From assembly GCA_021372475.1 (NCBI GenBank), contig JAJFUJ010000071.1, positions 1-54,148 on the forward strand: 54,148 nucleotides of DNA. Reading direction: 5' to 3'. Of the stretch, positions 39,266-45,157 are shown one piece after another. Both the position numbers and the translations under genes were made by a program. Source of the DNA: Chloroflexota bacterium. GTDB taxonomy: Bacteria > Chloroflexota > Anaerolineae > UBA1429. The notes below the pieces were generated by a model, which saw nothing but the letters and a program-made list of their open reading frames with translations, ran no database searches and was not told the origin of the DNA. Position 1 is the stretch's first letter. Every line of letters begins with the position of its first letter.

Positions 39266-40612
39266 ATGAAGGATGAACTAATTAATGCAGAAATCGAGGA
39301 AGATACAGAAGAGCCTCCCTCTAAATCCGATGAAGAGCCTCCCAGTAGAGTTGCCGGAAATCAGCTTTCCTGCCAATTACTAGATGAGAAATCGCCCTCA
39401 TGGGGCGATTGGCGTTGGCAGATGAAGCACCGCATCCGTAGTATTCCAGAGCTGCTTACTGTTTTCCCACATTTGAATCCGTTAGGCATTTGCGAAGCCG
39501 CGAGCCGGTTCCCGTTAGCCATTACCCCTTATTACGCTGCGTTGATACGCAGCGCTGATCGTTCCGACCCGGTTTTTATGATGAGCGTGCCGCAACCTCA
39601 GGAGCTATACGACTCGCCGTATGTCAGTGATGATCCTCTCGAAGAGGGCGAGGATATGGTCGTGCCTGGGCTTGTTCATCGCTATCCCGACCGGGCGCTG
39701 TTTGTCGTCACCTCGACTTGTGCTATGTACTGCCGGCATTGTACGCGTAAGCGTGCGGTTGGAGCGGTGGAAGGTCATATTGATTCCAAAGTACTCACTG
39801 GGGCAACAACCTATCTGAGGGCTCACCCTGAAGTAACTGATGTGATTATCTCCGGCGGCGACCCGTTTACCCTCGGGACGGCGCAACTGGAGGAGGTCAT
39901 ACGGGCTCTGCGAAGTGTGCCGAGTATCGAGATCATTCGTATCGGCACCCGTACCCCGGTAACGCTGCCTATGCGCATAACTCCCGAGCTGGTGCAGATG
40001 CTGCGTAAGTACCAGCCCATATGGATAAATACACATTTCAATCATCCCAACGAGATTACTCCCGATTCTATAGCCGCTTGCGAACGTCTGGCAGATGCAG
40101 GATTTCCTCTGGGGAACCAATCGGTACTGCTCAAGGGGGTAAATGATAACCCGCAGACGATCGAAAAGCTGTGCCGAACCCTCGTCAAGATGCGTGTTCG
40201 GCCATACTATCTCTATCAATGCGACCTGGTGCGCGGTGTCGAGCATTTTAGAACGCCACTCAGCCGTGGCATCGAGATTATGGAATATCTGCGCGGCCGT
40301 CTGAGCGGCCTGGCAATCCCGACGTTTGTTGTAGATGCACCGCATGGCGGCGGTAAAATACCGTTAATGCCAAGCTATATCATCTCGATGAGCCCTACGC
40401 ACACTGTGTTACGCAATTTTGAAGGCATGCTGGTTGGCTACCCTGAACCCGACACGCTGGTTGAAGAAGCGGTGCCGGCAGATAGCCAATCTACATCTGC
40501 CCCCAGCATATGGGATTTAGCAAGCGGTAAAGCCACCGTTATCTACCCGCGAACGAGCTCGCGACTATTGCGGCGCAAGCAAAATCACCAGCAGGAACCT
40601 GAGCGTCAGTAA
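39266..40612 (+). CDS. kamA: lysine 2,3-aminomutase (KamA family radical SAM enzyme)
   Basis: 448 residues. Radical-SAM cluster motif CAMYCRHC (CxxxCxxC) at ~152-159 in a TSTCAMYCRHCTRKR context, SGGDP for SAM binding, and the PLP lysine in APHGGGKIPLMP. YQCDLVRGVEHFRTPLSRG and PTFVVDAP keep both aspartates that in the clostridial enzyme hold the lysine epsilon-amine, so L-lysine to L-beta-lysine is the likely reaction. The N-terminal ~45 residues are acidic and unconserved. A hairpin follows the stop; two ATP-grasp genes lie downstream on the same strand, so the product is probably ligated and not degraded. Confidence 0.92.
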   Translation: MKDELINAEIEEDTEEPPSKSDEEPPSRVAGNQLSCQLLDEKSPSWGDWRWQMKHRIRSIPELLTVFPHLNPLGICEAASRFPLAITPYYAALIRSADRSDPVFMMSVPQPQELYDSPYVSDDPLEEGEDMVVPGLVHRYPDRALFVVTSTCAMYCRHCTRKRAVGAVEGHIDSKVLTGATTYLRAHPEVTDVIISGGDPFTLGTAQLEEVIRALRSVPSIEIIRIGTRTPVTLPMRITPELVQMLRKYQPIWINTHFNHPNEITPDSIAACERLADAGFPLGNQSVLLKGVNDNPQTIEKLCRTLVKMRVRPYYLYQCDLVRGVEHFRTPLSRGIEIMEYLRGRLSGLAIPTFVVDAPHGGGKIPLMPSYIISMSPTHTVLRNFEGMLVGYPEPDTLVEEAVPADSQSTSAPSIWDLASGKATVIYPRTSSRLLRRKQNHQQEPERQ

Positions 40613-40622
40613 GGGGATATAG

Positions 40623-40650
40623 AGCCCGCCTCCAAACGAGGCGGGCTTTG
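40623..40650 (+). terminator. GC-rich hairpin between aminomutase and ATP-grasp gene
   Basis: AGCCCGCCTC (40623-40632) pairs perfectly with GAGGCGGGCT (40638-40647) over a 5-base loop and is followed by TTTG. The stem is terminator-grade but the T tract is very short, so partial termination is likely. It would lower expression of the two ligase genes relative to kamA. Confidence 0.6.
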
Positions 40651-40668
40651 TCATGGAGTTAACGTAAA

Positions 40669-41658
40669 ATGCTTGTCGGTCTGACTTTTGATTTACGGAG
40701 CGACTATCTGGCGCTTGGATACTCTGAGGATGCGACCGCTGAATTCGACTCCAATCTAACGATAACTGCCTTAGAGGAGGCAATTCAGGCGTGCGGATTG
40801 AAAACGACACGCATTGGCCATGCCAGGGCACTGTGTGAACATCTGGTTGCCGGCGAGCGCTGGGATTTGGTTTTTAATATCGCGGAAGGATTAGCTGGCC
40901 GCAGCCGTGAAGCACAGGTGCCATGTTTATTGGAGTTGTATGGCATACCTTATGTGCTTTCTGACCCGCTTGTGTGCGCCCTTACACTGGATAAAGCCAT
41001 CACTAAAAAGCTGGTCCGGGCTGCAGGTTATAACACAGCAAACTTTTTTGTATTGAACAGACTCGGCGAGCTGGGCAGCGTTAACTTAGCCTATCCTCTG
41101 TTTGCCAAGCCGCTGGCAGAAGGGACGGGGAAAGGGGTCTCTCCCCAATCATTTATTTCTACCGGCGCTGAATTAGCACAAGTGTGCGGATCTATACTTG
41201 ATACTTATCGCCAACCGGTCCTGATAGAAGAATATCTCCCCGGCAGGGAGTTTACAGTTGGCATTGTCGGTAATGGCGCGGATGCGCACATAATAGGCAC
41301 TATGGAAGTGGTGATGTGTCAGCGCGAAATGCAGGCTATCTACTCTTACGAAATCAAAGAGCAGTGGCAAAAATATGTAACCTACACTTCCCCGCCGGTT
41401 GGTGCACTTTCCGAGGCTGTCGAGGCGCTAGCATTGGGCTGCTACCGAACGCTCGAATGCCGCGATGCGGCGCGTGTCGATATCCGCTTGGATGCTTCAG
41501 GGACGCCGAGTTTCATGGAGATTAACCCGTTGCCTGGTATGAACCCGATTTTCTCGGATCTGCCGATCATTGCCTATCGAGCCGGCCTGACATATGACGG
41601 CTTGGTTCAGGCTATCATTGGCTCAGCCATGCGGCGTCTTGGCTTGCAATGGAGTTGA
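40669..41658 (+). CDS. ATP-grasp ligase, D-alanine-D-alanine ligase-like
   Basis: 329 residues. Pre-ATP-grasp domain with WDLVFNIAEGLAGRSREAQVP, then GIPYVLSDPLVCALTLDKAITK (the family's active-site loop), FAKPLAEGTGKGV for nucleotide binding, IEEYLPGREFTVGIVG, and the metal site DAARVDIRLDASGTPSFMEINPLPGMNP with Asp, Glu and Asn. It forms an amide bond between an amino acid carboxylate and an amine using ATP. It is not the cell-wall Ddl: cell-wall genes are absent nearby and a second such enzyme follows. Adjacent kamA suggests that a beta-lysine moiety is a substrate. Confidence 0.85.
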   Translation: MLVGLTFDLRSDYLALGYSEDATAEFDSNLTITALEEAIQACGLKTTRIGHARALCEHLVAGERWDLVFNIAEGLAGRSREAQVPCLLELYGIPYVLSDPLVCALTLDKAITKKLVRAAGYNTANFFVLNRLGELGSVNLAYPLFAKPLAEGTGKGVSPQSFISTGAELAQVCGSILDTYRQPVLIEEYLPGREFTVGIVGNGADAHIIGTMEVVMCQREMQAIYSYEIKEQWQKYVTYTSPPVGALSEAVEALALGCYRTLECRDAARVDIRLDASGTPSFMEINPLPGMNPIFSDLPIIAYRAGLTYDGLVQAIIGSAMRRLGLQWS

Positions 41659-41660
41659 GG

Positions 41661-43193
41661 ATGACATCACGTTCATTTAGCGTGCTGGTGGTATATAACA
41701 AACCTCTTGAATCACCCACTGTCGGTATACGCGAGAGCGACGCGGGTATCCTCGATGAAGTTGAGGCTGTTCAACAAAGTCTCGAGAGACTTGGTTACCA
41801 GCACCGCCAGATTGGCATTAATTCGCTTCGTGAGCTCGCTGCCTACCTGGTGCAGGCTACCGAAGCAGTGGTAATAAATCTGGTCGAGTATCTGCCGGCA
41901 GACAAGCAGGATGCATCGCTGGTACCCACAGTTTGCCGGGCGTTCGGCAAAACCTGCACCGGCAACGACAGCCTGGCGCTGATGTTGGGGCTGGACAAGT
42001 GGCGCACCAAGGCGCTCCTGGAGCATGCAGGGCTGAGTGTTCCCCGCGGTGTCCTCATACCGGAGGACCAAAAAATACAAATTGAGTGTTTGCCTCAAGG
42101 CCCCTACATTGTCAAGCCGGTTGCGGCCGACGCCTCGGAAGGGATCGATGACAGGTCGATTGTCCAGCAGGCAGATGCAGTACTTGAGGTGGCCGTGCAG
42201 CGTATTCATATGCAATTCAAGCAGGCAGCACTCATCGAACAATACGTCGGTGAGCGCGAACTGAACATATCGCTTCTGCAAATCCATAATCGGGTGATCG
42301 TACTGCCTTTGGCGGAAATCGATTTTAGTGCGATGGGTGGCAGGCCTCACATCGTAGGGTATGCAGCCAAATGGCAGGCTGACTCCTTCGAATATCAGCA
42401 TATGCCACGTCTGCTGCCGGCGCCGCTCTCTGAAGAGATTGCCGTGTGTGTTCGTCAGGCTGCGCTGATGGCATGGCAGGCCGTTGGATGCCAGGATTAT
42501 GCCCGGGTAGATATGCGCCTGGATAAGATGGGCAAGCCGGTTATTATCGAGGTGAATCCCAACCCAGATATATCCCCGGATGCCGGTTTCACGGCCGCGC
42601 TGCTATATTCGGGTACTAGCTATGATCGCTTTATCGAGATTCTTGTCGAAAATGCCTGGGATCGGCGCAGCAGCTTGCCGCAGGTCAGCCAGGAACAGCA
42701 TCCAACACGTAAAATTCGCGTCACTGAGCAACAAGATCGGGAGATTATTCTCAGTATGCTGGAGCGTTCGCGGTTTTTCCGCGAGAACGAAATCCCGGTT
42801 GCACTTGAGGTGCTCGATGATGCCTTAAAGCTAGGTGACTGCAGTTCGTACAAGTCATACATAGTTGAAGAAAACAGCCAGGCATTAGGCTGGATATGCT
42901 ACGGACAAACACCAGGCACCATCGGCACATATGATATCTATTGGCTGATAGTTGAACCAACCAAAAGAACCTCGGGCTTGGGGTCAACACTGCTCGCTTT
43001 CGTTGAACAACAGATACGTGCGGCTAATGGGCGTCTGGCGGTTATCGAGACATCAGGCAGTGACTTGTATTATCCCACCCGCCAATTTTATTTGAAGCGG
43101 GGATATTATGAGACAGCCCGTCTCGTCGATTTTTATGCTCCGGGCGATGACAAGGTTGTATATACCAAATTCATCGCCCAGATCCCTATTTAA
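41661..43193 (+). CDS. ATP-grasp ligase fused to a GNAT acetyltransferase domain
   Basis: About 510 residues from ATG 41661 (GGAG six bases upstream; an ATG at 41649 precedes it). Residues ~1-345 are a second D-Ala-D-Ala-ligase-like ATP-grasp: GLSVPRGVLIP, IVKPVAADASEGID, IEQYVGERELNISLL and DYARVDMRLDKMGKPVIIEVNPNPDISPDAG. From ~370 to the end is a GNAT domain with YDIYWLIVEPTKRTSGLGSTLLAFVEQQI, whose RTSGLGS is the acetyl-CoA loop, and YLKRGYYE near the end. It probably ligates a second residue and acetylates an amine of the product. It ends 20 bases from a convergent gene. Confidence 0.88.
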   Translation: MTSRSFSVLVVYNKPLESPTVGIRESDAGILDEVEAVQQSLERLGYQHRQIGINSLRELAAYLVQATEAVVINLVEYLPADKQDASLVPTVCRAFGKTCTGNDSLALMLGLDKWRTKALLEHAGLSVPRGVLIPEDQKIQIECLPQGPYIVKPVAADASEGIDDRSIVQQADAVLEVAVQRIHMQFKQAALIEQYVGERELNISLLQIHNRVIVLPLAEIDFSAMGGRPHIVGYAAKWQADSFEYQHMPRLLPAPLSEEIAVCVRQAALMAWQAVGCQDYARVDMRLDKMGKPVIIEVNPNPDISPDAGFTAALLYSGTSYDRFIEILVENAWDRRSSLPQVSQEQHPTRKIRVTEQQDREIILSMLERSRFFRENEIPVALEVLDDALKLGDCSSYKSYIVEENSQALGWICYGQTPGTIGTYDIYWLIVEPTKRTSGLGSTLLAFVEQQIRAANGRLAVIETSGSDLYYPTRQFYLKRGYYETARLVDFYAPGDDKVVYTKFIAQIPI

Positions 43194-43213: not shown

Positions 43214-45157
43214 TCAGGCGAAACGTCTGTTCAATGTGCCCACAAAAAGCAATGTATCAAAGACGGGCTGCAGAGCCGGCTCCTGGGCCCACATATATCC
43301 CACAAGCTCCTTCCATGACGCTTGCGCTTGCTCCTTTTCACCGCGCGCACGCGCCGACAGAGTCTTTGCGAGCCTGATACAGTATTCGGCGTGAATCTCG
43401 AGATATTCCCAGGATTTTGCTTGTGCCCCCTCTGCCGTCCTGCGGTTTGCACGAATAGTAGGCAGGAAGGCTGCCACCGTATCCGCCACTTGAACAAATC
43501 CCTCGGCCGCTTGCGCATCCACAACAGGGCGCTCCCCCCGCAGATACGGCGGGCAAAAAAGCACTGAGAGCGTCTCCAGGTAGGCTTTCACCTTGGGACC
43601 GGCGTCTCCGAACGAGGCTCCGTAATGGTCATCGGCAATGGCCGCAAACGAACTGTTCACATCCCATAGAGTTTGCCCAAGGACGACCATCGGCAGGCTG
43701 GTCGGGAAAAAGATACGCTGCAGTTGGCAGCTCATATAGCCATTCAAACCGATGGTGTGCAGTCGCTTGGCATCCTCGCTCAGGATGCGGGCGGTGGAAG
43801 TATAGCCTGGGTCATAGAAATGGTCCCACATCAGGTGGTAATCAAAATCAAAACTATCCCCGCTAAAAATGTCTTGCCAGCCTCGCAGGAAGGCCACATT
43901 TTCACTGACATTCCTGGGGAATTTGAGGTGATTGCGGGTATACGGCGGGAGCGCTGGCAGCTCACCCTCTGCGGCAAAAGGCGAGGTATACGAGCGCGTG
44001 ATAGGCGCAAACATCAGGATGAACCGATCCGGATTGACAAGGCGTTGTTTCTCTGGTGGCCATAACAGATCCACGTAAATTAAGAAAACAATGCGGGTAG
44101 AAACCGAACGCGCGTTCATCAAGATATCGAGTTCGTTCAGCGTCTGGATGTAAAAGTCGGAAGGGATCGCCTTCTGGCAGTTCTCACATTCGCACTGGTT
44201 GTTTGAGTCGTCTGCCAACCAAAAATGCAGCACATCCACCTGCGGATTGGACGCAGCGTAATCGGCAATGCTCTCAACTATCAGCTTACGCACGGCAGGA
44301 TTCGAGTAACATAAGTTGGTGTTCAGGGGAACGTTGTGCCAGAGTGCACGTACGCCGTTGACCTCCGCTAGGTAACTTTGGATCTCTGGCGTTAGCTGGT
44401 ACTCTCGGGACTCCCAACCCAGGCCGGCGAATCCGAGCGGTTCGCAAGTCCAGCCATGCCCTACAGCATGATAGACTAATCCACGTTTAGCAATCTCCTG
44501 CTGGGCTTGTTTCAGGTACTCGCGCGCTTTCTCGACGGGGAAGGGCTCTTTAGCCAGGTTTGGGTTGCCTTCATGGCTGTACCAGCGCTCGAAAAACGTA
44601 TAGGACTCGCGGAACTGGGTAAAGTAGGCATTGTAGCCTACTTTGGGCGCCCAGTCGATAATATCGGCGATATTCTCATAACTGCAGGCGCCTTCTATGC
44701 ATATCCCGCGGTGACGGTAGGAGGCAGCTTCACTCTTGTGCAGGGATATGGCGCGAAGCGTACAGTGCGGGATAATCTCGCCTTCCTTGCCCGGCCGAAT
44801 CCAGCGGCAGCCTGCTGCTGACAATAGCTGGTAGGTGCCGATCAATATGCTCCGCGGATTATCGCCAATGATAGCGCCGTTCCCTGCCTCGACATCGACG
44901 GCGAACGCATCATCCCAGCGCGGGTCCGCGACTGTCGGGAGAGCGGTTGTCAGGGACTGAAGCGGCGAGGGTGTTTGCGCGGCTTCCAAGAGCCAGAGGC
45001 TGCTGGTTTTGCTCGCGTCATATGCTGCATTGGATTCAATGACCGGCTGCACCTGCCCTTGCGTCATAAGCACAATATATCTTGCCAACTCTGATGCGGC
45101 GAACTGCGCAGGTTGGGTGCTGCTCATCACGCGAATAGTCAATGCATGCGGATTCAT
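43214..45157 (-). CDS. DUF4838 domain glycosidase-like protein
   Basis: 647 residues. N-terminal ~130 residues are an alpha/beta domain like the non-catalytic N-domain of GH20/GH67-type enzymes (ASELARYIVLMTQG, AIIGDNPRSILIGTYQLLSAAGCRWIRPG). From ~145 a TIM barrel of DUF4838 type follows: YRHRGICIEGACSYENIADIIDWAPKVGYNAYF, YHAVGHGWTCEPLG and VLHFWLADDSNNQCECENCQK, where an acidic pair and a CxC...C site lie. The C-terminal third is helical. No signal peptide is seen. Probably a glycoside hydrolase of unknown substrate; the relation to the GH29 block is unclear. Confidence 0.83.
   Translation of the reverse strand: MNPHALTIRVMSSTQPAQFAASELARYIVLMTQGQVQPVIESNAAYDASKTSSLWLLEAAQTPSPLQSLTTALPTVADPRWDDAFAVDVEAGNGAIIGDNPRSILIGTYQLLSAAGCRWIRPGKEGEIIPHCTLRAISLHKSEAASYRHRGICIEGACSYENIADIIDWAPKVGYNAYFTQFRESYTFFERWYSHEGNPNLAKEPFPVEKAREYLKQAQQEIAKRGLVYHAVGHGWTCEPLGFAGLGWESREYQLTPEIQSYLAEVNGVRALWHNVPLNTNLCYSNPAVRKLIVESIADYAASNPQVDVLHFWLADDSNNQCECENCQKAIPSDFYIQTLNELDILMNARSVSTRIVFLIYVDLLWPPEKQRLVNPDRFILMFAPITRSYTSPFAAEGELPALPPYTRNHLKFPRNVSENVAFLRGWQDIFSGDSFDFDYHLMWDHFYDPGYTSTARILSEDAKRLHTIGLNGYMSCQLQRIFFPTSLPMVVLGQTLWDVNSSFAAIADDHYGASFGDAGPKVKAYLETLSVLFCPPYLRGERPVVDAQAAEGFVQVADTVAAFLPTIRANRRTAEGAQAKSWEYLEIHAEYCIRLAKTLSARARGEKEQAQASWKELVGYMWAQEPALQPVFDTLLFVGTLNRRFA

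Follow-up and report, generated by a model that had tools for sequence, protein, structure and literature searches.

A conserved cassette of a lysine 2,3-aminomutase-type enzyme, two ATP-grasp ligases and a GNAT acetyltransferase with a putative role in the synthesis of an acetylated beta-lysine peptide

Several described systems contain parts of the enzymatic set considered here. The AblA/AblB pathway for the osmolyte N-epsilon-acetyl-beta-lysine begins with a lysine 2,3-aminomutase and also uses a GNAT acetyltransferase. The EpmB/EpmA system for beta-lysylation of EF-P likewise relies on a KamA-family aminomutase, after which beta-lysine is ligated. In the synthesis of N-acetylglutaminylglutamine amide (NAGGN; TIGR03103), a GNAT and an ATP-grasp enzyme yield a small acetylated peptide without a nonribosomal peptide synthetase (NRPS) or the ribosome. 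In the open-licence PMC literature we found no paper joining an aminomutase with ATP-grasp ligases in such a pathway, no published account of ATP-grasp/GNAT small-peptide synthesis on a beta-lysine base, and no description of the cassette or its product, although subscription papers could contain one; within this scope, the outcome agrees with the original prediction that the gene set has no described product.

The window analysed here is a stretch of 54,148 nucleotides from a member of the Chloroflexota (contig JAJFUJ010000071.1 of assembly GCA_021372475.1), and lies on contig 9 of a 3.26 Mb draft genome. Its closest relatives, together with their loci, indicate a position on the Anaerolineae side of Chloroflexota. 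The features of the locus are as follows.

39266-40612, + strand: KamA, a lysine 2,3-aminomutase-type radical SAM enzyme with a LAM_C domain (448 aa)
40619-40651, + strand: strong hairpin in the KamA-AG1 gap (folding energy -25.4 kcal/mol, z -4.1)
40669-41658, + strand: AG1, a Ddl-fold ATP-grasp ligase (329 aa, Pfam Dala_Dala_lig_C)
41649-43193, + strand: AG2-GNAT fusion ORF (514 aa from the first ATG)
41649-42698, + strand: AG2 domain, a second Ddl-like ATP-grasp (Dala_Dala_lig_C at residues 150-334, motif EVNPNPDISPDAGF)
42711-43193, + strand: GNAT acetyltransferase domain fused to AG2 (Acetyltransf_7/_1, residues ~395-487)

The Pfam domains agree with the previously claimed succession of a D-Ala-D-Ala-ligase-like ATP-grasp and an ATP-grasp/GNAT fusion, all on the + strand. 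The accompanying statement that the two ligases are two bases apart depends on the start of AG2: it holds for the ATG at 41661, which is preceded by GGAG and is the more likely start, and fails for the first ATG at 41649, which gives a 10-base overlap with AG1. The 56-base gap between KamA and AG1 holds a 14-pair hairpin that is terminator- or attenuator-like, with a short and weak T tail; it was not called in the terminator scan, and may set the ratio of KamA to ligase expression. Apart from a sub-threshold match on this hairpin, no Rfam element or riboswitch was found in the window at the cassette, and none, including an osmotic riboswitch, was found near the cassettes of 10 relatives. A large convergent gene for a DUF4838 protein (43214-45157), which nothing ties to the cassette, follows directly, and the operon therefore ends with the AG2-GNAT fusion.

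Among the aminomutase-family models, KamA is best matched by TIGR03820 (AblA/KamA) at 500.9 bits, which is below the equivalog cut-off of 525.4 bits; the genome has no other KamA. It scores far lower against the arginine-aminomutase model (359, cut-off 600), the glutamate-aminomutase model (421, cut-off 650) and the EpmB model TIGR03821 (240.8 bits, cut-off 369.3). Alignment to its closest solved relative, 2a5h, locates the cluster motif CAMYCRHC (C152/C156/C159), the PLP lysine K364, and both of the lysine-binding aspartates that had been claimed for it, D320 and D357, so that the CxxxCxxC motif, PLP lysine and aspartate pair of a lysine 2,3-aminomutase are all present. The aspartate pair binds lysine, and Lys/Asn at these positions instead marks glutamate aminomutases (PMC3965090). 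Most cassette KamAs at the relatives' loci keep the pair, and those of archaea and Ignavibacteria are short and divergent. Assignment of the aminomutase to the lysine type is strongly supported by these sequence features.

Neither ligase reaches the cut-off of the TIGR01205 Ddl model (AG1 ~119.9 and AG2 ~91.4 vs 245.65), and both remain below every Ddl score cut-off checked, whereas a true Ddl encoded at a separate place in the genome scores 372 bits against the same cut-off. When the ligase residues were mapped onto the E. coli DdlB numbering, both families were found to keep Lys97, Lys144, Glu180, Glu187, Lys215, Arg255, Asp257, Glu270 and Asn272, the ATP, metal and transition-state residues of Ddl. 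The D-Ala pocket of Ddl is formed by Glu15, Ser150, Tyr216 and His63. The Glu15 stretch is replaced in both families; the His63 position is occupied by Glu in 100% of AG1 (Glu73 in the window) and 97% of AG2. At the Tyr216 position, every AG2 has Trp, as do most AG1 proteins. AG2 carries the further changes Ser150 to Ala, Gly276 to Asp, and an altered Leu282. The Ddl fold and its catalytic Lys, Arg, Asp, Glu and Asn residues are thus present and the D-Ala pocket residues are not; by sequence, both ligases have an intact ATP-grasp catalytic core with a non-Ddl substrate pocket. The glutamate at the His63 position is consistent with a possible contact for the extra ammonium group of beta-lysine. 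The AlphaFold2 model of AG1 (pLDDT 93) has the Ddl fold end to end, with Z 33 to 8evy; the predicted structure of the AG2-GNAT fusion is confident in the ligase part and poor in the GNAT part because the alignment is shallow there. A tree of 88 proteins, comprising the ligases and Ddl, places AG2 of bacteria and archaea together in a single clade (support value 99) apart from Ddl, and AG1 outside the AG2 clade and likewise away from Ddl. Since the true Ddl of this genome is encoded elsewhere and the pocket residues have been lost, a cell-wall Ddl identity of AG1 and AG2 was rejected, and sequence comparison strongly supports their being distinct from that enzyme.

The closest solved relative of the GNAT domain is 2r7h (E 7.8e-32). 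AblB (TIGR03827, cut-off 205.1) is not among the matches of the domain taken alone, has no match at E 1e-3 across the genome, and is absent from all 41 genomes of our sample (its own and 40 relatives). As 20 of these genomes have KamA, the usual acetyl-beta-lysine route fails to explain their KamAs. Against the NAGGN synthetase model TIGR03103 the AG2-GNAT fusion scores 22.7 bits (cut-off 569), and membership in either the NAGGN or the AblB family was rejected by score. The fusion is neither a general feature of the cassette, the GNAT being a separate gene in most relatives, nor unique to the window, as one Lentisphaerae record (L052) shares it. Methanomassiliicoccales have a KamA-AG1 fusion as well as an AG2 joined to a different, unrelated GNAT. 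The GNAT of deltaproteobacterial relatives lies outside the cassette, and its neighbours there (an M48 protease and a phosphofructokinase) are uninformative. GNATs are evolutionarily promiscuous; this and the deltaproteobacterial arrangement weigh against the pathway proposed below.

Conservation of the KamA and double-ligase triad, which the original prediction had proposed as a check, was borne out in relatives. A ligase of the AG1/AG2 family occurs within ~2.5 kb of KamA in 16 of the 20 KamA-containing genomes, the exceptions being G017, G023, G026 and G029. A scan of species genomes with AG2 gave at least 564 relatives, of which the best 80 loci were read; because these were picked by similarity to AG2, the resulting fractions do not describe a random sample. 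Among the 42 loci with 12 kb or more of sequence, KamA is found in 39, two or more ligases in 38, both in 37, a GNAT of the same type in 28 and the complete set in 24. The cassettes, which come mainly from uncultured genomes, are spread over Chloroflexota, Planctomycetota, Ignavibacteriota/Bacteroidota, Thermodesulfobacteriota, Aminicenantes, Bathyarchaeota and Methanomassiliicoccales. In an archaeal sample of 41 genomes around one Bathyarchaeote, KamA is located ~210 bp from AG1 in 11/11 genomes that have AG1, which is found in none of the remaining 30 (Fisher p 1e-7, the related genomes not being independent). Intergenic gaps within the cassettes are mostly overlaps or shorter than 50 bp, and evolutionary distances of KamA, AG1 and AG2 are correlated (r 0.82-0.85 vs a shuffled maximum of 0.22, uncorrected for the species tree). 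Chance adjacency was rejected by the conservation seen in the relatives, the AG2-scan loci and the archaeal sample. The gene set is strongly supported as a functional unit because it is conserved across bacterial phyla and archaea, with shuffled gene order, independent fusions and correlated divergence. For each of the four parts, the nearest cassettes belong to one genome of the same family and to Planctomycetota/Lentisphaerae rather than to other Anaerolineae, which suggests that the cassette was probably transferred between phyla as one block.

The gene order differs by lineage: KamA-AG1-AG2-GNAT in Chloroflexota and Planctomycetota; AG1-AG2-GNAT-KamA in Ignavibacteriota, Bacteroidota and Aminicenantes; and AG1, a two-component system, KamA and AG2 in deltaproteobacterial lineages. 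Bathyarchaeota have AG1-KamA divergent from AG2, with a GNAT of another type beside AG2. The two-component system, present in several deltaproteobacterial genomes together with a lone receiver domain between AG1 and KamA (L059 959-4203), is of the AtoS/AtoC-like (NtrC-like) sigma-54 type, and RecG is encoded upstream of the cassette in Ignavibacteria; neither neighbour gives a hint of the product. Several Anaerolineae have KamA-AG1 only (L047, L048, L139-L141), and L033 (9601-10656) and L043 (8993-11100) have an additional, third ATP-grasp that belongs to the AG2 branch, suggesting longer products. One Anaerolineae locus (L041 2986-3870) has a small-molecule-type methyltransferase between AG1 and AG2, perhaps for a tailoring step. 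An EF-P gene directly follows KamA-AG1-AG2 in L032 (521-1078) and nowhere else among the scanned neighbours. In the closest same-family genome AG2 is broken into different frames (L037 8511-9110), by a frameshift or an assembly error. No recurrence of transporter, resistance or NRPS genes was observed among the cassette neighbours.

We consider it fairly probable that the three genes form a dedicated pathway to a small, acetylated metabolite of peptide-like nature with beta-lysine as its base. In this pathway, KamA would convert L-lysine to beta-lysine, AG1 would activate a carboxylate with ATP and couple beta-lysine with the first of the partner amino acids, a second unit would be added by AG2, and the GNAT would acetylate an amino group at some step. 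Beta-lysine as the ligase substrate, the order of steps and the acetylation site are inferred. The occurrence of KamA with AG1 only in some relatives suggests that AG1 acts before AG2, and both these loci and those with a third ATP-grasp fit stepwise peptide assembly by AG1 and then AG2. Since distant bacteria and archaea have preserved the cassette as one set, with shuffled order and independent fusions, its four functions very probably make one defined compound, undescribed in the literature searched. The product is probably a soluble intracellular compound, such as a protectant, an osmolyte or a reserve; an intracellular compound of general use is favoured because the neighbourhoods lack the recurrent genes named above and because small archaeal genomes keep the set. 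Given that no salt-sensing riboswitch was found at the cassettes of the window and of 10 relatives, the osmolyte role is without specific support. More tentatively, we propose that a conserved acetylated beta-lysine peptide serves as a general intracellular metabolite, either a new compatible solute or a new cofactor-like compound, in a range of anaerobic bacterial phyla and in several lineages of archaea.

It is unlikely that the output of the locus is limited to N-epsilon-acetyl-beta-lysine or to a simple osmolyte based on beta-lysine, with the GNAT in the place of AblB and the ligases merely as neighbours. KamA and a GNAT are a known osmolyte pair (e.g. PMC11337218), and the genomes do lack AblB, but AG1 accompanies KamA at the Anaerolineae loci where the GNAT is missing, and a KamA-AG1 fusion exists in archaea. 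The ligase rather than the GNAT is thus the constant partner, and AG1 is the most constant partner of KamA. We find it quite improbable that the ligases use a macromolecule as the acceptor of beta-lysine, be it EF-P or another protein, or a peptide of the cell wall, instead of a free amino acid. Wall peptides can be substrates of ATP-grasp enzymes, the KamA homologue EpmB works in EF-P beta-lysylation, and EF-P adjoins the cassette of one relative; however, this adjacency is limited to that single locus, and KamA falls well short of the EpmB cut-off. Both ligases share their fold with Ddl, and the enzymes known to have this fold couple free amino or hydroxy acids. The set is also conserved among archaea, which are not known to have EF-P or murein.

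Two ATP-dependent ligations and a GNAT step are the arithmetic of glutathione- or mycothiol-like tripeptide thiols, and retention of the set by small archaeal genomes would be expected of a housekeeping compound; nevertheless, a low-molecular-weight cofactor of this type, with beta-lysine replacing glutamate, has a similarly low probability, as no cysteine-handling or disulfide-reductase gene accompanies the cassette among the scanned neighbours. A peptide with a different beta-amino acid, made by an aminomutase acting on ornithine, arginine or a lysine derivative, would agree with the score of KamA under the AblA cut-off and with the short, divergent KamAs of archaea and Ignavibacteria. We regard it as very improbable in view of the two lysine-binding aspartates and of the arginine- and glutamate-aminomutase scores far under their cut-offs. 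Identification of the product of the preferred pathway, a putative acetylated beta-lysine peptide, would assign a function to two protein families that carry no annotation beyond D-Ala-D-Ala ligase-like in hundreds of genomes, most of them uncultured. It could also bring a further class of metabolites to anaerobic microbiology.

Compared with the known systems, the synthesis logic of the cassette most likely resembles that of NAGGN by analogy, without the cassette being a member of that family: NAGGN synthesis has no aminomutase and uses a different ATP-grasp branch. The original prediction, which these results support in part, named neither this parallel nor the GNAT as a gene of its own in most relatives. 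The cassette differs from AblA/AblB in the lack of the AblB family and in its two additional ATP-grasp ligases. It is set apart from EpmB/EpmA by an aminomutase that is not EpmB by score and by ligases of the ATP-grasp type, in contrast to the LysRS-like EpmA. With Ddl, VanA and their relatives, AG1 and AG2 have in common the full-length fold and the ATP, Mg and catalytic residues, but they do not keep the D-Ala-site Glu15, His63 and Tyr216, and form separate clades.
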